Assembly: GCA_964017185.1 (NCBI GenBank)
Contig: OZ024877.1
Location: 2,210,006-2,274,005, forward strand
Source: Rugalucina vietnamica
Taxonomy: Eukaryota; Mollusca; Bivalvia; Lucinida; Lucinidae
Direction: 5' to 3'
Length of the DNA: 64,000 bases
A program made the translations under genes and the position numbers. Numbering within the stretch: position 1 is the stretch's first letter; every line of letters begins with the position of its first letter. This document shows positions 13,042 through 58,431 of this stretch, in pieces. The notes beneath the pieces are model-generated. The model was not told where the DNA came from. It did no database searches and was given only the letters and a program-made list of their open reading frames with translations.

Positions 13042-13228
13042 CCAAAGTCGGTATACACTTTGGTCATGTCAGAATGTATGCGACGCCTTATCCTATATAG
13101 CTATCTCCTTGATAATATTTATATTAGATTTGGGACCAAGTTATACAGACAAATTGTTGGAATTCCGATGGGTACAAATTGCGCACCTCTCGTAGCTAAT
13201 TTTTTTATACTGCTACGAAAGGGATTTC

Positions 13229-14388: not shown

Positions 14389-15696
14389 CGTGCAATTAAA
14401 GAAGGCAGCATAGTTATCAACCATGATTGGGTTAAAAACTAAGCATGCAGACTGTCGCATAACATTCAAGTTATAACCTATACGTCTGTAACGTGATATG
14501 ATTTTTCCGAACTGAAGAGAAAAATCATTTATTCCTTTAAGTTTCTTTAATTTGTAAACCAAGTCACCATAAAATTCAGGTTCCGAAAGGCCCTCACTTA
14601 AAAGTGTCTTTAACCCAACATTATATTTGGAAATCAATTCATAGTGTCTACGATAAAATATAGAAAAGGTTTTTCGAAGTTTATGATACCGATAGCCCTG
14701 TTGGAGAAGTTTTGCCGTTAAACATTTATTTCGAGCGTTGAAGTCTGTAACATGATTGCAGACTCTAGCAAACCTAATAAGTTGCGAAATGTATACACCA
14801 TAAGAAGCACGACGAGGAACGTCACCATCCAAAAAAGGAAAATTTACTATATCAAAATCAAAGTCATCGCGCTTATCATAAATTTTAGAAGAAACAAATC
14901 CATTTGCAACAGAAAGATGTAGATCTAAAAAGGGGGCTTCGGTATCTGAGATATTAGCTTTGTTCAACTGAAGTTCAGGTGGATAAATTTGATTGACCAT
15001 ACCTTCAAAATAAGGGTTGTCAATGTTCAAAAGGTCATCGAGGTACCTAGATGTGGAATTAAAAGCCTCGATAACATCAGCTTGATTATCATGGTTAAGA
15101 GAATCCATGAAATCTCTTTCGTAGCAGTATAAAAATAAATCAGCTACGAGAGGTGCGCAATTTGTACCCATCGGAATTCCAACAATTTGTCTGTATAACT
15201 TGGTCCCAAATCTAATATAAATATTATCAAGGAGATAGGATAAGGCGTCGCACACATTCTGACATGACCAAAGGGTATACCGACTTTGGTCAGAGGAAGT
15301 GAAAAAAGCCTTTCTGTCATTACATGCCAAATAAAGTGAACCATAGTTTTTTAATGCCCTTTTGAAGGTCCACTCTATCAAATCCAGAAGTTTTTCTTTA
15401 ATTAGATTATGTGGTAATGTTGTATACAGAGTAGAAAAATCATATGTGGACAAGCTTGTCGCACGGAACCCTCTACACTTCAATTTACTGAGCACCTCAC
15501 CAGAATTTTTTATTGACCAAAACCAATTTTTATTTGAAGTTTCATACACTGTCTCACAGTATCTTATAACATGAGATTTGATAGCAGTAAGACAAGAAGT
15601 TAATAATTTAGACAGTTCAGTGGTAGTACAAGAGCTAGAATTTGCAATAAATCTAGCTTTGTATGGTCTTTTGTGAAGCTTAGGTAACCAATACAT
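14347..15696 (-). CDS. Naiad reverse transcriptase, partial but uninterrupted
   Basis: A 449-codon frame runs from MYWLPKLHKRPYKARF to a TAA at 14347. RT landmarks in order: STYDFSTLYTTLPH (motif A), QIVGIPMGTNCAPLVADL (motif B), STSRYLDDLLNI (motif C), FLDLHLSV (motif D region), then a long basic thumb. The nuclease, linker and first RT part are missing because the copy is 5'-truncated. It uses TAA as terminal stop, leaving UGA free for recoding. Confidence 0.85.
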   Translation of the reverse strand: MYWLPKLHKRPYKARFIANSSSCTTTELSKLLTSCLTAIKSHVIRYCETVYETSNKNWFWSIKNSGEVLSKLKCRGFRATSLSTYDFSTLYTTLPHNLIKEKLLDLIEWTFKRALKNYGSLYLACNDRKAFFTSSDQSRYTLWSCQNVCDALSYLLDNIYIRFGTKLYRQIVGIPMGTNCAPLVADLFLYCYERDFMDSLNHDNQADVIEAFNSTSRYLDDLLNIDNPYFEGMVNQIYPPELQLNKANISDTEAPFLDLHLSVANGFVSSKIYDKRDDFDFDIVNFPFLDGDVPRRASYGVYISQLIRFARVCNHVTDFNARNKCLTAKLLQQGYRYHKLRKTFSIFYRRHYELISKYNVGLKTLLSEGLSEPEFYGDLVYKLKKLKGINDFSLQFGKIISRYRRIGYNLNVMRQSACLVFNPIMVDNYAAFFNCTPVGRASDSMMAPT

Positions 15697-16643
15697 CGTA
15701 GGAAGTTTGTCTTGGCCTTCATTGACACAAACAGAAAACTTAACAGGTAAATCGTTTAAAGACGCTTTTAAGTGAGGGCCTTTCGGAACCTGAATTTTAT
15801 GGTGACTTGGTTTACAAATTTAAGAAACTTAAAGGAATTAATGATTTTTCTTTTCAGTTCAAAAAAAATCATAACACGTTACAGACGTATAGGTTATAAC
15901 TTGAATGTTATGCGACAGTCTGCATGCTTAGTTTTTAACCCAATCATGGTTGATAACTATGCTGCCTTCTTTAATTGCACGCCGGTGGGTCAGGCGTCAG
16001 ACTCTACGGTGGCCCCGACATAAAGCTATTCATTTTAGTTGGTTGGGGCCGGAGCTTCTTGTCTGTTGCTTGGCCAACCGGGGTCCAACTGGTGTTTTTC
16101 TTTTGCTCCGGAGTTAGTAGGTTATTCGGCGCCCAGGGATCTCCATCGTCGGGCAGCTTACTCAGTCTGTGAGTCCTGGTTTTTGATTCATCAGGATGTT
16201 TATCATAATTTATTTGTTTTTTCTTGATGATTCATTGACTAGTTAGAGATTCACCACGAGGACCGAATAACTAACTAAATGTTATGAACCACTGCAGAAG
16301 CTGAGGGTGAGGTTATGGCCATGTAAAACCGGTTTAAGCCTGCCAGTAACTTTGTGTTACTGATCGTTCCAAGTCGATACTTCTGTAGTGGTTCTTTTTG
16401 TTTTATGTCTTGGTGTTTAAAAATGTTTTTGTGCTGTTGGCGCCTTATGTATGTTTTCATATTTTTAGTTAAGTTAAGGTAACTGAGTGGCCACCTATTG
16501 GGAAAATAGCTGCTCATTCGGCTTACGATATGTTTCATGGTATGAGTACCTGACTGTTAGTTTGTTTTTTTCCCACCTCGGTTTTTGGAGTGGGAATCTT
16601 TTTCTGATTGCGCCTTTTCCTGATCTTTGCCTACTTGTACCTT

Positions 16644-17244: not shown

Positions 17245-17343
17245 GAAATTTATGTGGTCATTGTGGTTCAGCTTAATGGACTAAACTGTTGAAAAATGCA
17301 AAATTACAGTAATTCTCTTTGGCTCCATGTTGTCAAATCTAAA

Positions 17344-17387
17344 CAGTCACTGAAGACGCTCGAGTTGCCGAAACCGCTGTATGGCCC
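17344..17387 (+). ncRNA. Type I hammerhead ribozyme (17.3 kb, first)
   Basis: Core CTGAAGA, then a stem II segment, GAAA, a short stem III (C-CGCT-G), TA before the predicted cleavage at 17381/17382, and TGGCCC pairing with CAGTCA across stem I, less well than in the other copies. Stem II (CGCTCGAGTTGCC) is imperfect, so this copy may be weak. Confidence 0.6.
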
Positions 17388-17704
17388 ATATTTTTTCACA
17401 TGAATATGTTCGCTGCTCTTAAAAGATCTCAGTTTTATAATTATTTGTTAGTACTGCAGCTGGTGTTGTGCAGTGCGGCTGCCCTAAAAGTCTCCCCATA
17501 AATCATCCATATTGCAGATGGTCCTTTGAGATCAGCGAGGGTATTCTCAGAAATCAGAAAATTATTATCGATTTAGATTCATTCTGTAACCAAAGTTAAA
17601 CTTATGTGGTCTCATTTGGATTATACTAGTCTTTGTATCGACTACCCTGTGGAAAGATTCAAAATTATAGTAATTCTCTTTTGCTCCATGTTGCCAAACC
17701 CAAA

Positions 17705-17748
17705 GGGTCACTGAAGAGGTTTGAGAAGCCGAAAACGCGGTATGGCCC
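17705..17748 (+). ncRNA. Type I hammerhead ribozyme (17.7 kb, second)
   Basis: Stem I is GGGTCA with TGGCCC (six pairs, one G-U). Core is CTGAAGA and GAAA. Stem II is GGTTT with AAGCC. A short ACGCGG stem-loop III is followed by TA. Cleavage is predicted between 17742 and 17743. All invariant core bases are present. Confidence 0.75.
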
Positions 17749-17805
17749 ATCTTTTATCTCATAAATACGTTCACAGCTTTTAAAGGATCTCAGTTTTAAT
17801 TTATT

Positions 17806-19560
17806 ATGACAGCTATCTGAATCTGAATGGCGTACTGGTGACACGCCAAATTGACAATACCTCACCAGGGGGTGCGCCAGGAGGGAAATACGTCCCTGGC
17901 TCTCACAAGAGATGCGAACTAGGACACACAGTCATCTATTTTGATATGTTGGGCTGTTAGGTACATACACAATAGTATCACTGGGCAGTTCTGACATCAA
18001 GGGTAAGAGTCGGCTGTAATGAAGCACATGTAGTGTAAAATAATGCACATACATTCAATATACATAAGCTGTGTCTGACATACCTAGAAGCGAGCAGCTT
18101 ACCCCTTATTGGATGATTTGTTCTTCTAGATATCATATACCATGCGACTTTACAACATATAGGGCTGGGTGTAAGATTGTAAGCATCAGAGCTGTAGCAG
18201 TTTGTACAATGATATGAAAGCAGAATGCAGGTGTTTCAAGGCTTAGTCCACATCGGACCTGTCTTGCTGCCATGTCGTATACGTAGACAATGTCACTGGC
18301 ATCCTGCATCAACGACTTGCTGATCAACCATTGGGAAACTGCTGTTTACGTTTGAGGGGTGGAATATATATTATGCTAGTTGTAAGCACATTTCCGAGTC
18401 TGCTGAAGAGATTATGGGACTCTATCTTGCAAGTATTGTTGAGCATGCAACATTTTGAGGCCACTGTTTGTGTCTTGATCTCATTTTACTCATTTGTGCA
18501 GCAGAATATATATCGCTAAAACCAACGAATAGGTCTTCAACAAAGGCAATGACCGTATGACATACTGAACTTGTCTTGATTCAGTTCCTGCAGCATCATA
18601 TATATCAGGAGATGGCAGGCAGCCACATTTGCATTTTTGTCACTTTTTGGGGTCCATGTCTGAATATCAACATATATCGGATTCGTTGAAGCCCATGTGG
18701 AACTTATGAGTTAATACTTACGACTTAAATAATTTAGTCACTTTATTCCTTTAATTTCATGCTTTGCCTCTACGGATAAAAGCTAAGGGCATGTCGGGAA
18801 GGTTAGTTACTGAAGCCACACCGTGTCTAGACTAGCCTCCCACAGGCAGGTTCACACCATTACATTTAATGCACATACATTACATTCAATGCACATTTCT
18901 TTCATCAATTACTGACAAATGCTCTTCGAGGATCAGATGACACTATGCCCAGTGGGTGGGGTAATTCAGCACTGATACATTCATCCCATCTACCTATCAC
19001 GGAAACCTACATGTACCACCTGAGGAGGCTCAAGTTTTTATTGTGTTAATGGCACACATAGCGTTAAGGTGATATACTGTTCATATAATACATAATGTAT
19101 GCAGAGTTTCATTCTCAATACCTGTTACAAACTTGAAGGTAACTCAAACACTGTACAAAAGGTGATCTCTTGAAAATACAAAAAGAGAAACAAACAATGC
19201 TAGAAACAAATATCCTTTATTCTACCTTTAATATCTTTAAAATATCAGAAAAAAAGTTTTCCATGGTGAAAAACGGATAAGTATCAATTATGATTTACAT
19301 GAAATAAGGTATTGCAATGAGTATATAATTTTGCAATATATATGATTTCGGTACCCTGACCCCTTTACTATATATACACTTGTGCTGAATGACTAACCTA
19401 TAAAGGAGTCCCAAAACTTCACAGCTTTTTGTCTTTATATCTTAATTGTCTGTAAGTTTTGCTTAAACAAAAGCTAATATTTCACGATGAGTATTATTCC
19501 AATAGACACAAACGCAAGTCTATTTTGTAAAATTTGGGTACTTTCAGTACTTTGATTTTA
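17806..19560. other. Stretch without recognised genes
   Basis: About 1.75 kb of AT-rich sequence. Short frames at 18133-18519 have no recognisable domain or splice context. I see no repeat boundary or RNA gene. Confidence 0.45.
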
Positions 19561-22402: not shown

Positions 22403-23515
22403 GGTAAAAGTAGTAAGCAATGATCAGGAAATGGCGCAATCAGAAAGAAATACCCACTTCAAAAATCGTGGTGGGAACACCTTTAATAAGCAATAAACAA
22501 TCAGGGACCTACACTATAAGAAAACATACCGTAAGAAAAGTGAGCAGCTATTTTCCCAGGAGGCGACCACTTAGTAACCCAAGCTTAATTAAAAATATGA
22601 AAAAAAAAGTGCAAGCATCACAAAAATTCAACACTTAAACATAAAACAAGATGAACCACAGTCGTATCGCCTTGGAACGATCAGTAATATACAATTGCTG
22701 GGCCAGGCGCGTTTAAACTATTTTTCAGGCTTACCTCACCCTCAGCTTCTGCAGTGGTTTAGTTAGTTATTTGTTCGGTCCTCGTGGCGAATCTCTTACT
22801 TGTCAATGAATCATCAAGGACCAACAAATAAATCTTGATAACGTCTTGATAAACCAAAAACGAGGACTCACAGCTACAATAAGCTGCCCGGCGATGGAGA
22901 GCCCTGGGCGCCAAACAACATCACTGAAACTCTGGTGCAAAATAAAAAAACACCAGGTAAACCCCGGTGGGTCAAGCAACAGACAAGAAGCTCCGGGCCC
23001 AACTAACTAAAATAAATAGCTTTAAGTCGGGGTCATCATAAAGTCTGACACCCGACGCACCGGCATGCCATTAAAGAAGGGACTATATTTATAAACCATG
23101 ACTGGGTTAAAAAAAAAACTAAGCATACAGACTGTAGCATAACATTTAAGTTATATCCGATAAGTTTGTAACGTATAATAATCGTTTCTAAACTGAAAAG
23201 AAAAATCATTCTTTCCTATAAGTTTCTTACATTTGTAAAGCAAGTCACCATAAAATCCTGGTTCTGAAAGGCCGTCACGTAAAAGCGCCTATTACAAGGT
23301 GATACTTCTGTTGTGGTTGTAATTGTTTTATGTGTTATGTTTTGGAGTCGAATCGATTTTACAGGCGCCTAACCTCACCCTCATTTTCTACAGCGGTTCA
23401 CAACATGTAGTTAGTTGTTTGGTCCTCGTTGTGAATCTCTAAATAGTCAATGAATCATCAAGGACAAACAAAAAAATCATGATAACCACCCTGATGCATC
23501 AACCAGAGGACCATT
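22403..23515 (-). mobile_element. Rearranged Naiad 3' fragments
   Basis: 22403-23290 is a minus-strand Naiad 3' UTR plus RT tail of the older subfamily, with the SECIS ATGA still present (near 23070). 23290-23345 is a plus-strand 3' UTR scrap, and 23345-23515 is another minus-strand piece. The mosaic suggests repeated inverted insertions or template switching. Confidence 0.65.
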
Positions 23516-24299: not shown

Positions 24300-25740
24300 G
24301 AAAAAAAAAACCTTTTTTGGGGCCCCAGCAACCAATCAAAATAAGGTATTAGGGCAAAAGTAATATAAAACATACAGGACTACTAAATAAACATTTCTGC
24401 AGAAACTGAAAGTAGCCATAGCAACCAGAGTTCTTATCTGACTGGAACAAGAAAACATTTTTCTGTAGAGGCTAATGCCAGAAACATGTATGCAATGTAT
24501 CAGCTTCATAAAGCACACAGTTTCTGAGAAGAAGATTTTTAAAGATTTTTTTCAAAAATTGGCCCTTTTTGGGGCCCCAGCAACCAATCAAAATATGCGA
24601 TCAGGATGACGGTCATCTGAAACGTAGTGCATTACTCAATAAACATTTCTCTAAAAATAAAAATGAGACTGCAGAAATAGCAAATTTTTACTTTTTCCAT
24701 TATAAGTCTATGGAAACTGAAAGTTGTCATAGCAACCAGAGTTCTTATCTGACTGGAACAAAAACAAATTTTGTAGAGGCTAATGCCAGGAACATGTATG
24801 CAAAGTATCAGCTTCATAAAGCAAACAGTTTCTGAGAAGAAGATTGTTAAAGATTTTGTTTTCGAAAATTTGCCCTTTTTGGGGCCCCTCATCTGAAACG
24901 TAGTGCATTACTCAATAAGCATTTCTCTAAAAATAAAATTCGAATGTCTCCAATGAGACTGCAGAAATAGCAAATTTTCACTTTTCCCATTATAAGTCTA
25001 TGGAAACTGAAAGTTGCCATAGCAACCAGAGTTCTAAACTGACTGGAACAAAAAAAATACTTTTTTGTAGAGGCTAATGCCAGGAACATGTATGCAAAGA
25101 ATCAACTTCATAAAGCAAACAGTTTCTGAGAAGAAGATTTTTAAAGATTTCTTTTCAAAAATTTGCCCTTTTTGGGGCCCCAGCAACCAATCAAAATAAG
25201 CGATCAGGATGAAGGTCGTCTGAAACATAGTCCATTACTCAAAAACATTTCTCTAAAAATAAAATTCAAATATCTCCAATGAGACTGCAGAAATAGCAAA
25301 TTTTCACTTTTCCCATTATAAGTCTATGGAAACTGAAAGTTACCATAGCAACAAGAGTTCTTATGTGAATAGAACAAAAAAAAAACAACTTTTTTTGTAG
25401 AGGCTAATGCCAGCAACATGTATGCAAAGTATCAGCTTCATAAAGCAAACAGTTTCTGAGGAGAAGATTTTTAAAGATTTTTTCGAAAATTTGTCCTTTT
25501 TGGGGCCCCAGCAACCAATCAAAATAAGCGATCAGGATGAAGGTCATCTGATATGTAGAGCACTACATAATTAACATTTCTCTATAAATAAAACTCAAAT
25601 ATCTCCAATGAGAAAGCAAAAAATTGCTATTTCCACTTTTTTCCATTATAAGTCTATGGGACATATAAGTTGCCATGCCAACCAGAGTTATCCAATCTAA
25701 ACAAAAAACAAAAAAATTTGGTTCCCCCTCCCCCCCCCCA
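24300..25740. repeat. ~310-bp tandem repeat, about five units
   Basis: Repeated blocks TTTTTGGGGCCCCAGCAACC and AACTGAAAGTTGCCATAGCA, and the GTAGAGGCTAATGCCAG block, recur near 24310, 24570, 24880, 25175 and 25500. The array ends in GACGGACGACGACGGACG and a GCTCACCTTTGAGCC hairpin (25857-25892), the end seen in other repeats of this window. Frames inside it are repeat translations, not genes. Confidence 0.75.
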
Positions 25741-29229: not shown

Positions 29230-30620
29230 GTTTTAGCTGGCTCACAAAATGGGCTTCTAGGATGGCCATGATCCGGCGTCCGTCGGTCCGTCAGTCGTCC
29301 ACACTTTTCAAAGATCTTCTACTCTGAAACCGCTTGGCCAATTTTATATGAAGCATCTATGGGATAGGGAAACAATTTGTTTATAAATAATCTAGGTCAC
29401 ATGACCAAGATGGCCGCCATGCTCATATATGCGGAAAACCCTTAAAATTCTTCTCCGGAACCACTGGACCGATTTCAACGAAACTTGGCATGAAGTATCG
29501 GGGGATTGGAGTACTACAATGTATTTATAAATCATGACCTTTGGATGACCTTGACCTATTTTACGGCAAGGTCAACATAGGTCGCCCATGCATTTGAATT
29601 GGCAAAATTGTTAAAATTTCATTTGAAAGAAAAAACTTGCAGGAAATGGGCAAATGGACTGAAGATATGTGATTCTGAAAAAAAAATTGGACCCCAGGGG
29701 TGTGTCTGCCCCACCCCGGGGCAACATACATGTATATTACAATAATATTCAAAGATCTTCTTCTCTGAAACCACTTGGCCAATCCAAGCCAAATTTTATA
29801 GGAAGCATCTATGGGAAGGGGAAATCAATGTGTAAATAAATAATTTAGGTCACAAGATCAAGATGGCCGCCATGCCCATATATGGTAAAAATCTTTAAAA
29901 TTCTTCTTCTCCGAAACCACTGGACTGATTTCAACGAAACTTGGCATGAATTATTGGGACTGAAGTACTACAACGTATTTATAAATCATGACCTTTGGAT
30001 GACCTTGACCTATTTTACGGCAAGGTAAACAAAGGTTGCTCATGCATTTGAACGGGGAAAATTGTTAAAAATGTCATTTGAAAGAAAAACAAACTTGCAG
30101 GAAATGGGCAAATGGACTGAAGATATGTGATTCTGAAAAAAATTTGGACCCCAGGGGTTGGTCTGCCCCCACCCCGGGCAATATGCATGTATTTTACAAT
30201 AATATCCAGAGGTCTTCTTCTCTTTAACCGCTTGGCCAATCAAAGCCAAATTTTATATGAAGCATCTATAGAAAAGGGGAACCAATGTGTAAATAAAGAA
30301 TCCAGGTCACAAGACCAAGATGGCCGCCATGCCTATATATGGTAAAACGCTTCAAAAATCTTCTTCTCCGGAACCGATTAACCGATTTCAAAGAAACTTG
30401 GCATGAAGCACAGATGACTCAAGTACTACACTGCATATATAAATCATGACCCTGTGATGGGCTTGACCTATTTAAGACAAGGTAAACATGGGCTGCCTAT
30501 ATATTTGAATGGGTAAACTGTTAAAATGTCATTTGAAGGGGAAATCTTGTAGGAAATTGGCAAATGGACAGGATATTGATTATTCTGAAAACAATGGCCC
30601 CAGGGCTTCATCTGCCCCAA
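29230..30620 (-). repeat. Dispersed repeat, three ~460-bp units in FABP intron 2
   Basis: Units near 29280, 29750 and 30200 each contain AAAGATCTTCT, AAGATGGCCGCCATG, GACCTTGACCTATTTTACGG and a GGACCCCAGGGG block. The same family fills 38468-39902, 57170-57520 and 60840-61730. The short frames inside are repeat translations. Confidence 0.8.
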
Positions 30621-33727: not shown

Positions 33728-34435
33728 TTATACACAGATATAAACAAAAAATAAGGTAAATCATAATACGAAAATATATAGTATAGGTACCAAAATGTAA
33801 CATGTATAACGGAAAGCAGGGTGAGCAGCTATTGAAGTAAGGTGGTCACAGTGCTAGCTTGGACAGAAAAAGTAAAATGCAGAGGGCCAAGCGAACAGCC
33901 AAATTAAATTCGGGTGGCCACAAAGTCATGCAACATGAAACTCATAATAAGAATAAATTGGATAAATGTGAACCACAATAGCAGTACCGCCTTGGAACGG
34001 TCAGTTATAAATAACTGGGGGGCTTAAACGGGTTTTACAGGAAACCACATAAACCACATAACTCAAAACAATACATATATTACGTGCAAGAAAATGTGAC
34101 CACTTTCCCAGCAAGGTAGCAGTCCTACTAGGCTCAACCATGTCAACGCAAACAACAATATCGAGCACAGCATAACAGTAGAAAAATAAACTATACATTA
34201 GACAATGCATAGACAAACAGATAAAACAAATTGATATTGATACCGGGGTACCTGTGTCGACTATCTACAGAATGACAACATGCAAGATGCAAGATATTTA
34301 CCTTCAGTTGGTCAAAACGAAGCCAAATAAACTTATATACAATTATGTTTGGGTAACTAAGTAGCCACCGTTTGGGAAATAGCTGGGTATTGCCTTTTGG
34401 GTAATTCTCTTTTGCATCATGTTGACAGATCTATA

Positions 34436-34479
34436 GGGTCACTGAAGAGGCTTAAATAGCCGAAAACGCGGCATGGCCC
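34436..34479 (+). ncRNA. Type I hammerhead ribozyme (34.4 kb, first)
   Basis: Stem I GGGTCA with TGGCCC. CTGAAGA core. Perfect stem II GGCT with AGCC around TAAAT. GAAA. Stem-loop III ACGCGGC followed by CA instead of TA, which loses the A-U pair next to the cleavage site and may lower activity. Confidence 0.7.
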
Positions 34480-34798
34480 ATCCCCGTTCTCATTTATATA
34501 TTCACTGCTCTTAATCTCAGTTTTAGTTGTTATTACTGCGGCTGGTGTTTGCCGTGTGGCGATCTTAAAAAGTCTTCCCGTACATCATTCGCAGTGCAGA
34601 TTATATTTTCCTTTTGGTCCTTTTAGATCAGCGGGTATTCTGAGAAATCAGAAAAGTATTATCGGTTAAGATTAATTTTCTAACCAATGTTTAATATATT
34701 TGGCCTCATTTGGATTATACTAGTCCTTGTATCGACTACCCTGTTGAAAGATGAAAAATTGCAGTAATTCTCTTTGGCATCATGTTGCCAAATCTATA

Positions 34799-34842
34799 GG
34801 GTCACTGAAGTGACTTAAATAGGCGAAACAGCGGTATGGCCC
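34799..34842 (+). ncRNA. Type I hammerhead ribozyme (34.8 kb, second)
   Basis: Stem I GGGTCA with TGGCCC. CTGAAG is followed by T where the invariant A9 belongs. GAAA, then CAGCGG, then TA. The altered core base suggests decay. Confidence 0.6.
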
Positions 34843-35524
34843 ATCACCTTTCTCATTAATATGTTCACTGCTCTTAATGCCTAGGTCACACTAGCACTTA
34901 CGTACGCTGCGGACGCTGCGGATATGGCTTCCGTATTTATCCGTTCTATCCGTAACTATTCGTATCTTATCCGTAATGCCCGTATCTGTACGTGTATTAT
35001 TCACAGGGCCCTGAAGATCCGCAGCCAGGCTTTGTTAATTGTCAAAAAAGCAGGCCCGGATGAAAAATCCGTAATGATAGGTAAAAGTATTCGAATCTGT
35101 CCGTATCTAATCGGTATCAAAACCGTATCTATTCCGTAACTAAACGTATTTTTCCGCGTGCATTTGTTGCGGATCGATACTGGTTCAAATGTGTTGTTTC
35201 GTTCGGTTACTGTCTTTATCGGCGTACAATTATGTGATGAAAACTTTCGTAAGTAATCACCGTAAACCGCTTACTCACTGAATCGCCCGTGCGTCCAATG
35301 TTTACAAATATGCATGTGCTTTCAATGCGTACCTTTCGTGAGTATGAAAAATATGGATTGCTCAGAAGAAGGCGATTTTGCATTCATTTTACTAGCTGAA
35401 GAGGCTGCAATACCCAAGAAAAATAGGAGAACAAATAAATAAACACACAAACACACAGACAAACACAGAAAAATTAGTAATATTTTAGTATTATGAGAAG
35501 TGATTTCCGTTGCTTTACGACTAT

Positions 35525-35984: not shown

Positions 35985-38059
35985 ACATAGACATAGACAA
36001 ATTTATTCAGACATAAACTATACAGTTTCTAGTCTATCAGTACATAATTTGACAAACATATTACAAAGGTCACTAATAGCAGATGGATATCATAATACAT
36101 GTACATATTGCTAATCATATTTCTTAATATCTTATTATTGACTGGTTTATGAAATAAAGCATGAAAATAACTTGGTTAACTACATTATCAATTGTAACAG
36201 GAAATAACAACATAGAGTCCATGTGATTCTTAAAGTACATTTCCAATTTTGCATTGCATGGATAAAATGAAGTGTTAGAGGATGAAATCCGTGATGCAAA
36301 TTAACAAGTTTAGACATGGTTGTACATATGACAAACAACAAAAAATGACTTAAATATAGAAAATGTTATTATGCATTAATAAGTGACTTTCGTAATTCGA
36401 AGGATTCTTGTAAATACTTTCCTAAATTTCTTAGCGTTAACAGTTTTTTGGATTGCATTAGATTTACGAATCTATACATACTAGGTCTTTTATAATATAA
36501 TGGGCGAATATATTTTCTTCGTATTGCTTCATACATTGGACATATAATGACAAAGTGGAACTCGTCCTCTAAATCCGCCTTATCACATAATGTACACATA
36601 CGCATAGTTCTATCTCTTCTCTGTTGGGTATAGCGTTCCGTTTCAATACGTAATTGATGGGAGGATAGTCGTAACCGTGATAATGCTACTCTGGTCCTAC
36701 AAGAGAGTTCATCTAAATAGCTTTCAAATTCGAAGGACTGCTTAATCTCCTTATATAAAGTCAAGGATCTAGAATTAACAATATCATTATACCATTTTTG
36801 TTTAAAAGCATCCAAAACTCTTTGCTTAAAACAAAGATGAAAAGTATTTAAGTTCACAGAAAAAAGATTACTCCACACGAAGGAAAATCCATACCTATCT
36901 AAAAGTACTTTAACGTTTTTAGCCCAGTTATTTACACCGTTATTACAGGCTTCAACCAAGGAATTATACATATGACCTATCAATATATTATTAGAGCGCA
37001 ATATTTTACACCAGTATTTGATGATACGTACATATCTATTTACATATAGTGGATACCTTCCGAGTTCACCATAAACACCCATAGTAGACGTGGAACGTTT
37101 AACTTTAAGTAGTGCTTTATAAAATTTTAGATGAATTCTCTCTATTTCTTTACATTTACCAAAGCCCCAAATCTCACAAGAATAACTCAAAATTGAACCG
37201 ACGAATGCGTCAAATAACTGACATTTAACCTTTGGTCTAAGACTGTACTTTTTGATGTTATATAACAAACAGTTCAATGCTTTTAATCCTTTTCCAGATA
37301 ATGTTGTTTGATTTAATGCAAATGACCCCGTATAGTTAAAAACAGTCCCTAGATAATTAAAATCATTTACTACTTCTAAAGGCATGCCCTTATAAGTCCA
37401 AATTTCATTATTTCGCAACCCTCCCTTATTCCTAAACAGCATAATTTTAGTTTTTTCAGTGTTAACTGTTAGACCCCATTTATCACAATATTTTTCTAAA
37501 AGGTTTAAACTACGTTGTAAATCGTCTTTATCTTTCCCCAAAACTACCATATCATCTGCAAATAGCATAAGTATAAATGTTACGTCATCTAAAGATAGCC
37601 CACTGTTTTGGTCATCTTGTAAGAAAAATTCTAGGTCTTCGACAAAAAACGAAAACAAAATTGGCGAAATTACTTCCCCTTGAATATGAATTACACCCTT
37701 TTACACAAACTTTGACCTCATTGTACATATCCTTAATTATTCTTAACATTTTTGCATTAATGCCCAACTTGTACAACTTAAACCAGAGACCATTCAAGTA
37801 AACACTGTCAAAGGCTTTTTTAAGGTCGACGAATGCACAGAATAATCTGCCTTTTTTCTTTTAAAACTTTTTGAATAATGGCGTTTAAAACAAAGATTGC
37901 ATCGGTGGTCGAACACCCTTTGTGAAAACCGAACTGCGAGTCAGATAAAATGTTATTATTTTCGGCCCAGTTGCTTAACCTATTATTTAATACACCCGTA
38001 AAGAGCTTCGAAAAACAGCTAACTAATGTAATCCCCCTATAGTTGTTTACGTCACTAGG
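35985..38059 (-). mobile_element. Non-LTR retrotransposon (LINE), 5'-truncated
   Basis: Minus-strand RT starts mid-domain (NNYRGITLVSCFSKLF region near 38040) and ends with a ~380-bp 3' UTR whose end repeats ACATAG-type hexamers. ATAAG occurs on both sides (35980-35984, 38060-38064), a likely target duplication. A related fragment is at 47264-48585. The clade is not assigned. Confidence 0.8.
36369..37658 (-). CDS. LINE reverse transcriptase C-terminal half
   Basis: A 429-codon frame with LFADDMVVLGKDKDDLQRSL (RT motif C, FADD), TEKTKIMLF and a C-terminal CTLCDKADLEDEFHFVIICP motif (CxxC...H...C), as in many animal LINE ORF2 ends. The upstream frame at about 37612-37870 carries AFVDLKKAFDSV (motif A) but is shifted relative to this one near 37.66 kb, with another shift near 37.86 kb. 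So this copy is broken in addition to being 5'-truncated. Confidence 0.85.
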   Translation of the reverse strand: MFSFFVEDLEFFLQDDQNSGLSLDDVTFILMLFADDMVVLGKDKDDLQRSLNLLEKYCDKWGLTVNTEKTKIMLFRNKGGLRNNEIWTYKGMPLEVVNDFNYLGTVFNYTGSFALNQTTLSGKGLKALNCLLYNIKKYSLRPKVKCQLFDAFVGSILSYSCEIWGFGKCKEIERIHLKFYKALLKVKRSTSTMGVYGELGRYPLYVNRYVRIIKYWCKILRSNNILIGHMYNSLVEACNNGVNNWAKNVKVLLDRYGFSFVWSNLFSVNLNTFHLCFKQRVLDAFKQKWYNDIVNSRSLTLYKEIKQSFEFESYLDELSCRTRVALSRLRLSSHQLRIETERYTQQRRDRTMRMCTLCDKADLEDEFHFVIICPMYEAIRRKYIRPLYYKRPSMYRFVNLMQSKKLLTLRNLGKYLQESFELRKSLINA

Positions 38060-38467: not shown

Positions 38468-39902
38468 CACCTGAGCCGTTAGGCTCACAGGGTGAGCTTA
38501 TAGGATGGGTATGATCTGGCGTCCGTCCGGCGTCCTCGTCCGTCGTCCGTCCGTCGTCCGTCCGTCCGTCCGTCCGTCCACAATTTCAAAGATCTTCTCC
38601 TCTGAAACCGCTTAGCCAATCAAAGCCAAATTTTATATGAAGCATCTATAGGAAGGGGAAACCAATGTATATATAACTAATCCAGGTAACCGGACCAATA
38701 TGGTCGCCATACCCATATATGGTAAAAACCCTTCAAAATCTTCTTCTCCAGAACCGGTGAACCGATTTCAATAAAACTTGATGGCTCAAACACTACAATG
38801 TATATATAAACCATGACCCTGTGGTGACCTTGACTTATTTTACGGCAAGGTCAACATACATGTAGGTCGCCAATGCATTTGAATGGGGAAAACTTTTAAA
38901 ATGTCATTTAAAGTGAAAGTCTTGCAGGAAATGGACAATAGGACTAAATATTGATGATTCTGAAAAACATTAGACCTCAGGGGCTCATATGCCTCCACCC
39001 CGGGGAAATATACATGTACGAGTATATCTCCACAATATTCAAACATCTTCTCCTCTAAAACCGCTTGGCGAATCAAAGCCAAATTTTATGTGAAGCCTCA
39101 ATAGGAAGAGGTTACCAATGTATTTATAAATAATCCAGGTCACATGACCAAGATGGCCGCTATGCCAATATAAGGTAAAAACCCTTCAAAAATCTTCTTC
39201 TCCAGAACCGGTTGACCGATTTCAACGAAACTTGGCATGAAGCATCGATGGCTCAAGCACTACAACGTGAATATAAATCATGACCCTGTGATGACCTTGA
39301 CCTATTTTATGGCAAGGTCAACATACATCCCCAATACATTTGAATTGGGAAAACTTTTAAAATGTCATTTAGAGTAAAAGTCTTGAAGGAAATGGGCAGT
39401 AGGACTAAATATTAATGATTCTGAAAAAAATGGACCTCAGGGGCTCATATGCCCCCAACCCGGGGCAATATACATGTATTTCTCCAAAATATTCAAACAT
39501 CTTCTCCTCTGAAACCGCATGGCTAATCAAAGCCAAATTTTATATGAAGCCTCAATAGGAAGGGTAACCAATGTATATATAAATAATCCAGGTCACATGG
39601 CCAAGATGGCCGCCATGCGCATATATGGTAAAAAACCCTTCAAAAATCTTCTTCTCCAGAACCGGTTGACCGATTTCAACGAAACTTGGAATGAAGCATT
39701 GATGGCTCAAGCACTACAATGTGAATATAAATCATGACCCTGTGATGACCTTGACCTATTTTATGGCAAGGTCAACATAGGTCACCAATACATTTGAATT
39801 GAGAAAACTTTTAAAATGTCATTTAGAGTGAAAATCTTGCAGGAAATGGGCAGTAGGACTGAATATTAATGATTCTGAAAAAATGGACCACAGGGGCTCA
39901 TA
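38468..39902 (-). repeat. Dispersed repeat, three ~430-bp units
   Basis: Begins with AGCTCACCTGAGCCGTTAGG, then GTCCGTCC simple repeats, then units (near 38590, 39050, 39490) with AAGATGGCCGCC and GACCTTGACCTATTTTA blocks. Same family as in FABP intron 2. Coding frames absent. Confidence 0.75.
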
Positions 39903-40707
39903 TAGTTATAACCTATACGTTTGTAACGAGTAATGATTTTTCTGAAGTGAAAAGAAAAATCATTCTTAAATTTGTAAACCAAGTCACCATAAAATTCTGG
40001 TTCCGAAAGGCCCTCACGTTAAAGGGTCTTTAGCCCAACATTAAATTTGGAAATCAACTCATAGTGTCTGCGATAAAATTTAGAAAATATGTTTCGAAGT
40101 TTATGATACCGATAGCCCTGCTGGAGAAGTTTGGCTGTTGAACATTTATTTCGCGCGTTGAAGTCCGCTACATAATTGCAGACTCAAGCAAACCTAATAA
40201 GTTGCGAAATGTATACACCATACGAAGCACGGCGAAGAACGTCACCATCCAAAAACGGAAAGTTTACTATATCAAAATCAAAGTCATCGCGTTTATCATA
40301 AATCTTAGACGAAACAAATCCATTTGCGACAGAAAGATGAAAATCCAAAAACGGGGCTTCGGTATCTGTGGTGTTAGCTTTATTCAACTGTAGTTCAGGT
40401 GGATCAGGTGGTTTGATTGACCATGCCTTCAAGATAAGGGTTCTCAATGTTCAAAAAGTCATCAGGGTACCTCGATTACATCAGCTTGATTGTCATGGTA
40501 AAGAGAATCCATGAAATCTCTTTTGTAGCAGTATAAAAATATATCGGCTACGAGAGGGGCACAATTTGTACCCATCGGAATTCCAACAATTTGCCTGTAT
40601 TACTTGGTTCCGAATCTAATATAAATATTATCCAGGAGATAGGTCAAGGCATCGCATACATTCCATGACATGACCAAAGTGTACATCGACTTTGGTCAGT
40701 GGAAGTG

Positions 40708-43692
40708 AATAAAAATAATTGTTAGGTCCTTTGGAAGCAGTAAAACATTGAAAGCCAGAAGATGGGCCATATTGTACAATTTCGGGTAATGATACTTCGT
40801 CAGTGACCCTTTACAAAACTGGTAGCGAAAGCCAGACATTTTTGCTGCAATTTCAAAAATTTACATCGGTGTAGTCTAAATCAAAGACTTGTATTCCCAA
40901 AGTGGTCAAATAATCAAAATACGGTTAAGAAGATGATTCTTAATGTACAATATATTTGAAACACTCCAAATATATTCACTGATCCCAAAGGATCAAAAGA
41001 AAAATATAATCTGCACTATGGATGATGTACGGGGAGACTTTTTAGGGCCGCCACACGGCACAACACCAGCTGCAGTAATAGCAAATAAAAATAATTGTTA
41101 GGTCCTTTGGAAGCAGTAAAACATTGAAAGCGAGACGATGGGCCATATTGTACAATTTCGAGTAATGAACCTTCGTCAGTGACCCTTTACAAAACTGGCA
41201 GCGAAAGCCAGACATTTTTGCTGCAATTTCAAAACTTTACATCGGTGTAGTCTAAATAAAAGACTTGTATTCCCAAAGGGGTCCAATAATCAAAATATTG
41301 TTAAGAAGATGATTCTTAACATGCAATATATTTGAAACACTCCAAATATATTCACTGATCCCAAAGGATCAAAAGAAAAATATAATCTGCACTATGGATG
41401 ATGTACGGGGAGACTTTTTAGGGCCGCCACACGGCACAACACCGGCTGCAGTAATAGCAAATAAAAACAATTGTTAGGTCCTTTGGAAGCAGTAAAACAT
41501 TGAAAGCGAGACGATGGGCCATATTGTACAATTTCGGGTAATGAACCTTCGTCAGTGACCCTTTACAAAACTGGCAGCGAAAGCCAGACATTTTTGCTGC
41601 AATTTCAAAACTTTACATCGGTGTAGTCTAAATCAAAGACTTGTATTCCCAAAGTGGTCAAATAATCAAAATACGGTTAAGAAGATGATTCTTAATGTAC
41701 AATATATTTGAAACACTCCAAATATATTCACTGATCCCAAAGGATCAAAAGAAAAATATAATCTGCACTATGGATGATGTACGGGGAGACTTTTAGGGTC
41801 GCCACACGGCACAACACCAGCTGCAGTAATAGCAAATAAAAATAATTGTTAGGTCCTTTGGAAGCAGTAAAACATTGAAAGCGAGACGATGGGCCATATT
41901 GTACAATTTCGAGTAATGAACCTTCGTCAGTGACCCTTTACAAAACTGGCAGCGAAAGCCAGACATTTTTGCTGCAATTTCAAAAATTTACATCGGTGTA
42001 GTCTAAATCAATCCCAAAGGGGTCAAATAATCAAAATATTGTTAAGAAGATGATTCTTAACATACAATATATTTGAAACACTCCAAATATATTCACTGAT
42101 CCCAAAGGATCAAAAGAAAAATATAATCTGCACTATGGATGATGTACGAGGAGAATTTTTAGGGCCGCCACACGGCACAACACCAGCTGCAGTAATAGCA
42201 AATAAAAATAATTGTTAGGTCCTTTGGAAGCAGTAAAACATTGAAAGCGAGAAGATGGGCCATATTGTACAATTTCGGGTAATGAACCTTCGTCAGTGAC
42301 CCTTTACAAAACTGGCAGGGAAAGCTATACATTTTTGCTGCAATTTCAAAAATTTACATCGGAGTAGTCTAAATCAAAGACTTGTATTATTCCCAAAGGG
42401 GTCCAATAATCAAAATATTGTTAAGAAGATGATTCTTAACATACAATATATTTGAAACACTCCAAATATATTCACTGATCCCAAAGGATCAAAAGAAAAA
42501 TATAATCTGCACTATGGATGATGTACGGGGAGACTTTTTAGGGCCGCCACACGGCACAACACCGGCTGCAGTAATAGCAAATAAAAATAATTGTTAGGTC
42601 CTTTGGAAGCAGTAAAACATTGAAAGCGAGAAGATGGGCCATATTGTACAATTTCGGGTAATGAACCTTCGTCAGTGACCCTTTACAAAACTGGCAGCGA
42701 AAGCCAGACATTTTTGCTGCAATTTCAAAACTTTACATCGGTGTAGTCTAAATCAAAGACTTGTATTCCCAAAGTGGTCAAATAATCAAAATACGGTTAA
42801 GAAGATGATTCTTAATATACAATATATTTGAAACACTCCAAATATATTCACTGATCCCAAAGGATCAAAAGAAAAATATAATCTGCACTATGGATGATGT
42901 ACGGGGAGACTTTTAGGGCCGCCACACGGCACAACACGAGCTGCAGTAATAGCAAATAAAAATAATTGTGAGGTCCTTTGGAAGCAGTAAAACATTGAAA
43001 GCGAGACGATGGGCCATATTGTACAATTTCGAGTAATGAACCTTCGTCAGTGACCCTTTACAAAACTGGCAGCCAAAGCCAGACATTTTTGCTGCAATTT
43101 CAAAAATTTACATCGGTGTAGTCTAAATCAAAGACTTGTATTCCCAAAGGGGTCAAATAATCAAAATATTGTTAAGAAGATGATTCTTAACATACAATAT
43201 ATTTGAAACACTCCAAATATATTCACTGATCTCAAAGGATCAAAAGAAAAATATAATCTGCACTATGGATGATGTACGGGGAGACTTTTTAGGGCCGCCA
43301 CACGGCACAACACCAGCTGCAGTAATAGCAAATAAAAATAATTGTTAGGTCCTTTGGAAGCAGTAAAACATTGAAAGCGAGAAGATGGGCCATATTGTAC
43401 AATTTCGGGTAATGAACCTTCGTCAGTGACCCTTTACAAAACTGGCAGCGAAAGCCAGACATTTTTGCTGCAATTTCAAAATTTTAGATCGGTGTAGTCT
43501 TAATCAAGCTCTTGTATTCCCAATTGCAAAGGGGTCAAATAATCAAAATACTGTTAAGAAGATGATTCTTAACGTACAATATATTTGAAACACTCCAAAT
43601 ATATTCACTGATCCCAAAGGATCAAAAGAAAAATATAATCTGCACTATGGATGATGTACGGGGAGAATTTTTAGGGCCGCCATACGGCACAA
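40708..43692 (-). repeat. Tandem array of eight ~376-bp hammerhead-bearing units
   Basis: Units start (AATAAAAATAATTG) at 40708, 41084, 41460, 41835, 42201, 42580, 42955 and 43331. Spacings are 366-379 bp, mostly 375-376. The last unit lacks about 15-18 bp. Units are about 95% or more alike by eye. Each holds one minus-strand hammerhead. It is inserted into a Naiad RT gene. No coding capacity. Confidence 0.9.
40764..43432 (-). ncRNA. Eight type I hammerhead ribozymes in the array
   Basis: Minus-strand motifs at 40764-40809, 41140-41185, 41516-41561, 41891-41936, 42257-42302, 42636-42681, 43011-43056 and 43387-43432, each 46 nt. In each: stem I GGGTCA with TGGCCC, core CTGACGA and GAAA, stem II GGT with ACC, and a self-complementary TTGTACAA as stem III followed by TA before the cleavage site. 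The closing pair of stem II is A with C. The palindromic stem III would suit a dimeric ribozyme, as known for newt satellite hammerheads. The first unit carries a small change inside stem II. Confidence 0.75.
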
Positions 43693-43907
43693 CGCTTTTC
43701 TGTCATTACTTGCCAAATAAAGTGAACTCTATCAAACTGAGAAGTTTTTTTCTTTAATCAGATTATGTGGCAATGTGGTATTCAGAGTAGAAAAATCGTA
43801 TGTGGACAAGCTCGTCGCACGGAACTCTCTACACTTCAGTTTACTAAGTACCTCGCCAGAATTCTTTTATTGACCAAAGCCAGTTTTTATTTGAAGTTTC
43901 ATACACC

Positions 43908-44285
43908 TAGCATTTACAGCGACGCGTAGTGTGTCTGGATATTGTTGCAAATTAAGCAACGTTGAGCTTGGTTAGTGGCTGGATGGGTGACCCAATGTGG
44001 AGCAGAGGTGATTGTGCAGTCGCGGGCGCTCATGGTGGGTACCATCAATTACTTTTACCACTTAAGTGAACAACTAAGGCTTAGATATGTATCGGTGGTT
44101 TGACTAAACCACTTTTCCTGGGCAGACTCGGACCTTCTAGGCAGTTTACCAGGTATCAGGTGGTTGGTCATGTTCATGTTCAGTGCTTAAATGCAATATT
44201 GGCGACTAGTTCACAGCACTTGTGAGAACATTTTGTAATTGCAGTGAGAGAGGGGCTTTAAGGATTTACCACTTCACTACATCAG
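43908..44285 (+). mobile_element. 5S rRNA-headed SINE
   Basis: AAGCAACGTTGAGCTTGG, then TTAGTGGCTGGATGGGTGACC (43960-44000) match the internal promoter and 3' half of 5S rRNA. The rest is not 5S. A downstream core (GGTTTGACTAAACCAC, then CTGGGCAGACTCGGA) recurs, inverted, at 62820-63060. That makes a 5S-derived SINE more likely than a 5S pseudogene. Confidence 0.7.
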
Positions 44286-44950
44286 GAAAACATGTCCGTA
44301 AATGTATACCCCCGTATACCCCATTTTATATGGCGCCTTTGTTTTCGCAACATGGATGGTACAATTCCTCTACTTTCTAAATCCAAAATTTCCAGCCTCT
44401 AGCCATCTTCTGTGACTGTACAGGCCGGTTTGTGTCGGACCTGTTCGGAAACCACATTGTTGGTTTTACCACGAGGCGGCTTACTGTTTTGCCACTCAAA
44501 TAGTACATTCCATTTTTGAAGCATCTCTCAACCACTTGATCAATCAAATGTGGGGCATCTACCCTGTAATTTGCTGCTTTTGGTGCAAAGATAATTGGAA
44601 AAAGCAGGCAACTAAAAAAGAAACATCATGAAAACATGTCCGTGCAATATATACCCCCTTGAACCCCACTTTTATATAGCAAAACTGGGGTATGCAGGAG
44701 TATACCACCATCAATTAACCCATATTTGACGAATGGATTATCCCATTATTATCATTTGGGTGAGTCCACTTTCATTTTTAGGGGTGTTACGAGTGATTTT
44801 TAAATTTTATCTCATTTTTCGATGATATTTCTCCATGCAAACAGCATAGCCCCAGATGGGACGCCGCGTTCTGCGGCGTCACATCTGGGGCTATACTGTT
44901 TGCCTATGTCCCACAAAAGGGACGCCAGGCTTATATGAGTTAATGTCACA
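44286..44950 (-). repeat. Patchwork of hairpin-repeat pieces
   Basis: Pieces of the palindromic MITE flank (CATCAGGAAAACATGTCCGT at 44281 and 44628), a partial GAGCCGC MITE (about 44333-44490), and an inverted copy of the AGCCCCAGATG hairpin repeat (44710-44945). Confidence 0.6.
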
Positions 44951-45157
44951 GTCGTGAGCAGAGTTAGGGGTTTGGGTATGCCCATGTCCATGTATGTTAA
45001 ACAGTCTTGAAAAAACTTCTACTTGGGTAAAAGGAGAGAACAGTCGGTCAGTTCACCCTAAAAATGTAAAATAGTAACAACTTGTCCTTAAAGTGTTGTA
45101 AGTGTTACCTATCAAGATACATCTGCCAAAGGAATGTAAAAAATAAACATTCTCTTC

Positions 45158-45235
45158 CAACACCTTGTACTTTGGTATCTCAAGTATTTACATACTTTGT
45201 AAATACTTAAGATACCGAGGTACAAGATGTTAGAA
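45158..45235. repeat. ~75-bp hairpin
   Basis: CTTGTACTTTGGTATCTCAA, then GTATTTACA and its complement form a near-perfect stem around CATACTT. No wider repeat context seen. Confidence 0.6.
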
Positions 45236-46040
45236 CAGATGTTTTGTGGATTACTTTTATGCTTAATTTTTTTCATCAACTACATACTCTGGAAAATTCT
45301 TAAAATTGTTTGTCGATTTTTTGCATCATTACGAAAACTTGTCAATGCAATATACAGTACAGAGATTTTCTTTCTGCTGTAAAAAATATTTTCATTGGAT
45401 TTTTTTTTATATATTTTTAAAATATTTTATTCAAAACTTACTATTGTGATTGTATATTAAGTCATGCTATTAACACCAATTTGTGAATCCTGTGTGACTG
45501 TATACATGTATATAAGATCTCAAATTGCTGATTTTGAAATAAAACATGGTAGATTATCCCATTACTACAGTTAAGCTCATATTAAATATCTATAGATGTG
45601 ACGGGTAGCATCTGAAAAATATTGATATTGCTTATTATCATATATTTACAACAAAATCTTTTTGCATATGCGATACAGACAAGAGTTACGTTCACGTATC
45701 GCGGCACAGTATCTCGAAAAGCCGTATCCGTTTAAAAATTGATGAAACCCATATCATTCCCTTGGGAGAAAAAGCCATATCACTCGTATCACATACCCAC
45801 GTGACCCATATCATCCCTAGGGAGAAAAAGCCGTATCATGGCACCAAATGACTGGCAAATAAAATTATATTCGGAACACTCGGTTCCTATTGTGTAGTGT
45901 ACCGCAGGCATGTGTTAGATTTGTTTGGATTGTGGTTTTATGTCATAGGCAACAGTATTTTGTCATGTCGAGACGAATTTTCGATTTGTGCTAATGCGGA
46001 AATAATATGCGCTCTTCTGCACGCTTTGGCGGTATGTCAA
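45236..46040. other. Stretch without recognised genes
   Basis: AT-rich. Short frames have no recognisable content. Confidence 0.4.
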
Positions 46041-50065: not shown

Positions 50066-50330
50066 ATGTAGCCACCCGACTAGCATCAATTAGGGATCAT
50101 CATCTTAACAGAATTTTGCATATTTGGCCCCTTTGGGAATATAAGTCTTTGATTTAGACTATACTGGTGAAAATTCTTGAAATTGCAGCAATCATGAATG
50201 TCTGGCTTTCGCTGCCAGTTTTGTAAAGGGTCACTGATGAAGGTTCATTACCCGAAATTGTACAATATGGCCCACCTCTCTTTGAATGTTTTTACTGCTT
50301 CCAAAGGAGTAACAATTATATTTTATTTGA
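50066..50330 (+). repeat. Single retrozyme-like monomer fragment
   Basis: About 265 bp matching the 376-bp unit of the 40.7-kb array in opposite orientation, including one hammerhead and the CTGGCTTTCGCTGCCAG block. It may be the end of a larger rearranged copy. Confidence 0.7.
50228..50273 (+). ncRNA. Type I hammerhead ribozyme (50.2 kb)
   Basis: Stem I GGGTCA with TGGCCC, core CTGATGA and GAAA, stem II GGT with ACC, TTGTACAA, then TA. Same lineage as the 41-43 kb array. Confidence 0.7.
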
Positions 50331-50467
50331 AATTCAGATTTTAGCTTTCACTGGATGATGAAAAACATTAGCTGTTTTAATGTCTGTGAAGTCCGAAGGG
50401 CTTCTCGGAGACATTAAAACAGCTAATGTTTTTCATCATCCAGTGAAAGCTAAAATCTGAATTTCAA
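50327..50467. repeat. Near-perfect 141-bp hairpin
   Basis: Arms of about 60 bp (TTGAAATTCAGATTTTAGC at the base) close around GTGAAGTCCGAAGGGCTTC. The arms are almost identical, so it is recent or maintained. Confidence 0.8.
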
Positions 50468-52380: not shown

Positions 52381-52788
52381 CACTGCTAGAGCTGATCTAT
52401 TCCTTAAGCAAAGACAATTTATCAATTACTGATAATTGATAAATTAATTGATAATTAATCGAGTAAATTAACAAACGCATTTACATGTTCATGTGCTTTA
52501 AACCCATATACATTGTATGAGGTATTCCTCAACATATTTACACACATCATGATAACATGTCCATGTAATGTATACCCCACTTTTATATGAGCCGCGTCAT
52601 GAGAACGCTGGACTTATACTCATGCGATAATAAAGTCGCAGATCAACTGTGCAGTATCTGCACAGCTGATCAGCGTCTTTGTTTTCACTACTCGGCTAGT
52701 ACAATCCCCCTACTTCTTTAATCTGATATTTCTGTACGCTGTGGCTTGGCTCGGATGTACGTTACATGTAACGTGGCTGTACGTTACA

Positions 52789-53213
52789 TGTAACGTACAG
52801 CCGAGCCAAGCCACAGCAAAACCCGTCGATGGAAAAGCATGCTCATCCACCAAGGGTGGTTTACTGCGCTATATACCTAACACTTACTCGATTCACAAAG
52901 TCTCGAGTTTGAAATTTGCATATTTCCAAGGGAAGCTATCCCGTTACATTACTTCCCCCTCCGAGAAGACTCGCCCCGAGTCTTGGCCTGGGGACTACAT
53001 GGGTAAGGCAACCCCGGTCTGGCGGTTGTCATCATCCCACCGCTGCCACCAAATGTAACGAGCGGACGAGCCGAGCCACAGCAAACCCCGTCGATGGAAA
53101 AGCATGCTCATCCACCAAGGGTGGTTTACTGCGCTATATACCTAACACTTACTCGATTCACAAAGTCTCGAGTTTGAAATTTGCATATTTCCAAGGAAAG
53201 CTATCCCGTTACA
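52789..53213 (-). mobile_element. Small LTR retroelement (TRIM-like, Gypsy-type PBS)
   Basis: Two ~160-bp direct repeats (52789-52948 and 53054-53213), each bounded by TGTAAC...GTTACA, enclose ~105 bp. Read on the minus strand, the first repeat is followed by TTTGGTGGCAGCGGTGGGAT, which resembles the primer-binding site of many invertebrate Gypsy elements, and the second is preceded by a purine run. There is no coding capacity. The repeats are nearly identical, so the insertion looks young. An extra inverted scrap of the repeat end lies at about 52738-52788. Confidence 0.7.
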
Positions 53214-58331: not shown

Positions 58332-58431
58332 CCGGTGGGCCAAGCAACAGACAAGAAGCTCCGGCCCCAACCAACTAAAATGAATAGCTTTAAGTCGGGG
58401 ACATCATAGAGTCTGACGCCCGACCCACCGG
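58332..58431 (-). promoter_or_regulatory. SECIS-like element of copy C
   Basis: Same layout as 14289-14388: ATGA quartet strand, TAAAG apical A's supplied by the TAA stop, and GGAG opposite. One helix II G is U here (GTCCCC), and the outer arms CCGGTGGG/CCCACCGG are intact. Confidence 0.65.

Follow-up and report, generated by a model that had tools for sequence, protein, structure and literature searches.

In a 64,000-nt stretch of the genome of the lucinid bivalve Rugalucina vietnamica (contig OZ024877.1, positions 2,210,006 to 2,274,005; hereafter the window), a tandem array carries a hammerhead-like motif in each of its units. The locus raises the question of whether these repeats spread through RNA, as a retrozyme, or arose in another way. 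Tandem satellites can grow without RNA. Retrozymes yield abundant circular RNAs in animals, and the source of the enzyme returning these RNAs to DNA is so far a matter of proposal: Penelope-like elements (PLEs) are named as a strong candidate partner of metazoan retrozymes in PMC7229834.

An eight-unit array with a type I hammerhead motif in every unit

The array occupies positions 40708-43693 and, according to TRF, has a period of 376 bp, 7.9 copies and 95% matches, bearing out the preliminary description of eight copies of ~376 bp. TRF and the unit alignment give eight units, of which the RNA sense is the minus strand. The GC content is 36.8%. No ORF of at least 150 aa (stop to stop, with TGA read through) overlaps the array. 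Lacking an RT or endonuclease frame, it is non-autonomous, as are metazoan non-LTR retrozymes.

All eight units contain, on the minus strand of the window, the motif GGGTCA-CTGANGA-N13-GAA-ATTGTACAAT-A-TGGCCC, an orientation that had not been stated earlier. From stem I to stem I, the motifs lie at 43387-43432 (unit 8), 43011-43056 (unit 7), 42636-42681 (unit 6), 42257-42302 (unit 5), 41891-41936 (unit 4), 41516-41561 (unit 3), 41140-41185 (unit 2) and 40764-40809 (unit 1, in which stem II is degraded), with successive spacings of 376, 375, 379, 366, 375, 376 and 376 bp. The layout is that of a type I hammerhead, open at stem I. Stem I comprises six pairs, including one U-G wobble, and cleavage is predicted between UA and U, both in 8/8 units. 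By hammerhead numbering, we take the core positions to be C3-A9, G12-A14, A15.1-U16.1 and A17. The type I hammerhead initially reported for each unit, with a full core, six-pair stem I and UA site, was thus found in 8/8 units. Stem III consists of three pairs and a GTAC loop, which together form a 10-nt palindrome. The weak stem is stem II, which closes with A.C in 9/9 copies of the subfamily (eight in the array and one at 50 kb). Above this base are three pairs, one of which is G.U in units 2, 4 and 7; two pairs are broken in unit 1.

The unit alignment contained 51 variable columns, counting indels column by column, of which 12 were informative and 39 were singletons. The variants are interleaved along the array, with units 1, 3 and 6 forming one group and units 2, 4 and 7 another; units 3 and 6 differ by 4 substitutions and units 4 and 7 by 5. 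This interleaving indicates that the array is not one circle copied eight times with later private mutations only. Either multi-unit blocks were duplicated after insertion or the template was already a mixed multimer.

Motif searches and chance expectation

A hammerhead search with Rfam, suggested in the preliminary description as a check, was negative at every setting tried. Rfam release 15 yielded no hammerhead match at the gathering score, and allowing E values up to 10 likewise gave none, whether the query was the array, the full window or either of two 76-nt slices. Because diverged copies keep the motif, as described below, we take this result as a limit of the Rfam models for this repeat. 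The gathering score of plasmodium_snoR11 is 80, and its matches on the array, none above 27.2 bits, were dismissed.

Scanning with a strict hammerhead descriptor returned eight matches in 64 kb: seven in the array, where unit 1 was missed because of its stem II, and a plus-strand match at 50234. By chance, as gauged from 60 first-order Markov sequences, each a 64-kb strand, the descriptor is expected to match a mean of 0.083 times per strand (maximum of 3). A single such motif arising by chance is unlikely yet possible. Since the tandem copies are not independent of each other, relatives were sought outside the array.

In a looser scan, a match at 48302 was rejected due to a core mismatch and a score of 12, with ~0.1 such matches expected per strand. 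Three weak matches within a 454-bp array (38.6-39.9 kb) were at chance level and were likewise rejected. The looser scan also scored a match at 34442, in a stem register different from that of the 34-kb motif given below. Pattern scans of viral contigs and prokaryote genome contigs produced 0 matches, which is uninformative on distribution as these contigs are non-animal.

Diverged copies of the repeat keep the motif

Using a covariance model built from nine motifs, the eight of the array and the one at 50 kb, we searched the whole window at E values up to 10. The 13 matches comprised the nine motifs of the model and four more, all within two older partial tandems on the plus strand: 17703 (E = 3e-10), 34434 (1.4e-9), 34797 (8e-8) and 17342 (1.2e-3). 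Three further copies of the repeat are present in the window, all on the plus strand. A 5'-truncated single copy of ~0.65 unit at 50083-50329 has its hammerhead motif at 50228-50273 and the 3' end of the array. An older copy of ~1.35 units with a period of ~363 bp, at 34390-34878, contains motifs at 34436-34479 and 34799-34842. Another older copy, of ~1.5 units with a period of ~361 bp, at 17276-17810, contains motifs at 17344-17387 and 17705-17748. The 17- and 34-kb copies are ~63-65% identical to the array unit.

Among the four older motifs, CTGANGA is kept in three, GAA in all four and a complete stem I in three. In stems II and III, 13/16 and 7/12 pairs, respectively, are intact with changed letters. 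In 3/4 older motifs, G-C forms the base of stem II, and the third stem II pair, G-C in the array, is C-G in three (T-G in the other). Each older motif has one inner stem III pair that is C-G versus U-A in the array, the other inner pair being broken, such that at least one stem III pair is broken in 4/4. Damage extends to the second 34-kb motif, which has lost A9, and to the first 17-kb motif, which has two broken pairs in each of stems I and II. Both subfamilies have a palindromic stem III but spell it differently: the array has ATTGTACAAT, and the inferred old ancestor ACCGCGGT, which is intact in 0/4 older motifs.

Over eight distinct rows, 90.3% of the cells were paired, as compared with 84.2% in shuffles (2/500 as high) and 27-51% when the alignment was slid; the alignment was fitted to the structure of the model, which favours pairing. 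The covariation score was 0.170 versus 0.098 in shuffles (12/500 as high). Cells with a change on both sides numbered 6 versus 3.4 in shuffles (44/500), and fell on one stem II pair and two stem III pairs. Neither the number of pairs with a both-side change (226/500 as high) nor that of further pair types (446/500 as high) was better than in shuffles. In the alignment used, A3, the stem III of one older motif falls in an insertion and its cells were set aside. A three-way alignment shifts stem III by two bases; the motifs are therefore given here from directly read letters. Judged from these sequences, the motif is conserved with some covariation, alongside damage.

Among long stretches, conservation between the array and the older copies is highest at unit positions ~6-102, directly after the common 3' end described below. 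In 25-nt steps, positions 6-102 are 84-92% identical to the 34-kb copy and positions 6-78 are 72-92% identical to the 17-kb copy, which has a deletion beyond 78.

The array interrupts a Penelope-like element

Self-BLAST of the window and tblastn of the longest PLE frame revealed that the array interrupts the RT frame of a dead PLE on the minus strand. Residues 395-470 match at 43887-43690 (-) and residues 470/476-550 at 40712/40692-40468 (-). The RT remnant upstream of the insertion (residues ~367-470; tblastn) is at 43694-43975 (-), and the remnant downstream (residues ~476-748; tblastn and BLAST) is at 39904-40707 (-). The name Penelope-like is based on the RT motif strings DFSTLYTT, GIPMGTNCAPL and YLDD and on GIY-YIG-looking letters near the N-terminus, taken as motifs of this class. 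Searches of the PLE frames against Pfam, NCBIfam, PHROGs and PDB sequences gave no convincing match, and structure prediction of the RT part was uninformative (mean pLDDT of 32.4).

Both flanks of the array match other PLE copies in the window. The insertion site is uninterrupted in three related copies (~15.3, 59.3 and 13.0 kb), of which those at ~15.3 and 59.3 kb are nearly identical. These read GGAAGTGAAAAAAGCCTTTCTG at the site, with one extra A in the 13.0-kb copy. A fourth copy runs through the site and ends at 20318, and a fifth (26.4 kb) loses similarity exactly there. The left flank of the array ends with GGAAGTG(AA) and the right flank starts with GCTTTTCTG. Comparison of these flanks with the uninterrupted copies places the insertion at an A-run. 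No target site duplication was clear here or at any of the other three loci, the longest word common to the 20-nt flanks being 4 nt in each case. In metazoan non-LTR retrozymes, such a duplication is optional and, when present, >4 bp (excerpts of PMC7229834), and a rotifer PLE insertion without duplication, joined via microhomology, has been reported (PMC3846280). The 3' end of the resident PLEs is unlike that of the retrozyme, and a minimal-hammerhead scan of the resident PLE copies found no motif.

The resident PLEs have further features. Rfam matches to SECIS_1 were present at 14305-14372, 2062-2129, 58348-58415 and 22980-23047 (all -), within PLE copies and on their sense strand, with one score above and three below gathering; some of the PLE frames contain in-frame TGA codons. 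Naiad PLEs encode selenocysteine and have an N-terminal endonuclease. One PLE copy, 13729-15755, is inserted in the opposite orientation within another, 11700-16643, with an apparent 5-bp duplication, TTAAA, at the junctions.

Three of the four loci share a 3' end downstream of the predicted cut

The profile on which end positions were compared combined the array consensus with the 17- and 34-kb copies. In RNA sense, the 3' ends are at profile positions 154 (array), 152 (50 kb), 159 (17 kb) and 128 (34 kb), and the 5' ends, all different, are at 168, 285, 357 and 3, respectively. The 3' ends lie 66 nt (array), 62 nt (50 kb), 68 nt (17 kb) and 42 nt (34 kb) past the predicted cut, the array consensus ending at 62 nt. 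Three of the four fall within 7 nt, for which the simulated P value was 0.0045 under random ends in a test chosen post hoc; the comparison comprises four loci, of which the 34-kb copy ends ~26 nt short and the 17-kb copy has an end uncertain by some nucleotides. The location of the ends 42-68 nt past the cut indicates that copying did not start at the ribozyme cut.

This common end resembles the internal RT start of PLEs. In a lizard PLE, RT initiation is internal, at two neighbouring sites past the hammerhead; the more frequently used site is 111-118 nt inside the ORF, and the intervening sequence accounts for the 30-40 bp 'tail' that is optional in PLE copies (PMC11167929). With the ribozyme cut at +26, subtraction of the figures in PMC11167929 places the commonest lizard start 85-92 nt past the cut, versus 62-68 and 42 nt for the ends observed here. 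By analogy, the ends at 62-68 and 42 nt might correspond to the two lizard start sites. Inactivating the hammerhead leaves in vitro insertion of the lizard element unchanged, the ribozyme of this element cut only when protein was added, and its RNA-seq data contain no ends at the cut (PMC11167929). Insertion with a dead hammerhead and the lack of RNA ends at the cut suggest that an uncut multi-unit transcript, as well as a circle, could serve as template. The excerpts of PMC7229834 do not describe a fixed or common 3' insertion end for retrozymes.

A more specific proposal, to which we give clearly less than even odds, is that a PLE-type RT starts at a fixed place just past the hammerhead or, alternatively, ~26 nt closer to it, and that the ~95-nt block at unit ~6-102 binds the enzyme. 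Retrozymes would then be PLE cis-signals freed from the PLE gene. The assignment of this block as the enzyme-binding site is speculative. Three of the four loci suggest a constant spacing between the ribozyme and the genomic 3' end; if this is so, genome-wide counts of such ends in retrozyme-rich animals would test the Penelope proposal directly.

Predicted folding of single and paired motifs

For the 51-nt motif alone, the active fold was predicted at -6.6 kcal/mol versus -11.7 kcal/mol for the best fold. By contrast, a double hammerhead was the best predicted joint fold of two unit 8 motifs (-29.6) and of two copies of the older majority motif (-42.3). The joint fold energy was unexceptional, as 200 shuffled motifs averaged -22.9 (sd 5.6, lowest -42.0). 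When neighbouring units of the array were folded jointly, stems I and III formed in trans in 7/7 pairs, and the exact double-hammerhead fold with both stems II was the best in 1/7. In a transcript spanning units 6 and 5, the probability of the trans pairs was about 0.2-0.37 and that of a competing cis stem I was 0.12-0.49. Circular folding gave z scores of -1.1 to -2.7 in 7/8 units and, for the consensus, -2.6 in sense and -2.7 in antisense. Being alike on both strands, these scores are not strand-specific and were not used as evidence. That transcripts would self-cleave into ~376-nt monomers, as the preliminary description proposed, is here an inference.

According to the excerpts of PMC7229834, newt and axolotl hammerheads cleave better as dimers. 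The motif described here resembles those repeats in its short stem III and, for one axolotl family, in its palindromic tetraloop; compared by their description in those excerpts, their units are 330-350 bp and those of the array ~376 bp.

Comparison with known elements and origin of the array

By the features compared, all read from sequence, the array agrees with the published metazoan non-LTR retrozymes, which are tandem repeats of ~150-450 bp with a GC content below 50% (excerpts of PMC7229834). In Mytilus galloprovincialis, the same excerpts report repeats of ~350-390 bp with ~5000 type I hammerheads (Cervera and de la Pena 2020) and RNA circles on northern blots. Judged by this published description, the array is like the mussel retrozymes in having tandem type I hammerheads, in unit size, in low GC and in coexisting with PLEs. 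Most canonical loop contacts are missing from the mussel ribozymes as portrayed there; in the array, the difference is the A.C closing pair of stem II. The match to animal retrozymes initially claimed is accordingly supported by the unit size, the GC content, the motif in each unit, the dispersed partial tandems and the PLE-like neighbours. The repeats also resemble hammerhead-bearing PLEs (Frangieh et al. 2024; PMC11167929) in their tandem or partial-tandem layout, hammerhead and A/T-rich targets, as well as in a 3' insertion end at a set distance past the ribozyme with an optional shorter end. In contrast to PLEs, the array has no RT and GIY-YIG endonuclease frame, the flanking RT being that of the interrupted element, and its unit is 376 bp.

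Overall, we consider the array to be a non-autonomous, metazoan-type non-LTR retrozyme that spread via cleavage, circles and a PLE-type RT acting in trans, with a probability of roughly 0.85. The repeat is dispersed in the manner of mobile copies, occurring at four loci in 64 kb, one of which interrupts a site that is intact in three host copies. Counting against this reading are the negative Rfam search, the A.C base of stem II in 9/9 copies, the active monomer fold, predicted to be 5 kcal/mol above the best, and the exact double-hammerhead fold, best in 1/7 neighbouring pairs and of unexceptional energy. So do the loss of 5/12 stem III pairs in the older motifs, the two covariation measures no better than in shuffles, the four-locus basis of the 3'-end comparison with its short 34-kb end, the lizard data on a dead hammerhead, and the resident PLEs, whose 3' end is unlike that of the retrozyme and in which no hammerhead motif was found. 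In the mechanism that we envisage, a minus-strand transcript would carry one hammerhead per unit, and neighbouring motifs, probably as a double hammerhead formed via the palindromic stem III, would cut the RNA into ~376-nt pieces that a host RNA ligase would close into circles. An RT supplied in trans, most likely from a PLE, would begin synthesis 62-68 nt past the cut, always at the same A/U-rich place, and would copy either the circle, going round it, or an uncut multi-unit transcript. The cDNA would then enter an A/T-rich target, which at this locus is an A-run within the dead PLE's RT gene. Multi-unit blocks of the array may later have been reshuffled, or its template may have been mixed from the start.

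The interleaving of the units and the near-identity of units 3 and 6, and of units 4 and 7, are as expected of multi-unit duplication, and could indicate satellite DNA growing by unequal crossing-over, in which the hammerhead is a relic without a role for RNA in the spread. Block duplication following insertion fits a retrozyme too, and the satellite reading, which we consider unlikely, is opposed by the partial copies at four places, three with a common 3' end and all with different 5' ends, by the insertion within a PLE-like gene and by the retention of ribozyme pairs despite sequence change. It is very improbable that the motif is a look-alike that arose by chance, was spread by tandem duplication and was never catalytic. 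The negative Rfam search would agree with this, and the strict descriptor expects about 0.17 matches per window on both strands (2 x 0.083); it is the 17- and 34-kb copies, which at ~63-65% identity keep the core, stem I and many stem II and III pairs with changed letters, that speak against chance.

We give almost no credence to the array being an internal part of the PLE itself, either a pseudo-LTR or an intron. PLEs do bear hammerheads at their pseudo-LTRs and lie in tandem (PMC11167929), and the array and the interrupted gene have the same orientation. Nevertheless, the array sits in the middle of the RT frame, at a site that, in the five PLE copies compared, is uninterrupted in three, is passed by the fourth, which stops at 20318, and coincides with the loss of similarity in the fifth. 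Moreover, the minus-strand reading of the insert has no intron-like AG end, and three more copies of the repeat occur elsewhere in the window.

Other repeats and elements in the window

The window contains two ~454-bp tandem arrays of another repeat, at 29340-30618 (2.8 copies) and 38577-39903 (2.9 copies), which are ~79% alike; the second adjoins the truncated PLE at 39904. A 326-bp tandem repeat (2.3 copies) is present at 24889-25659. Palindromic MITE-like hairpins occur at 50327-50467, 52738-52817 and 45145-45244 and, by eye, also at ~44850-44905. Those at 52.7 and 45.2 kb have sub-threshold Rfam microRNA matches on both strands. Finally, a 443-aa frame at 36369-37700 (-) contains an RVT_1 domain (E = 6.5e-15) and probably belongs to another, LINE-like retrotransposon.
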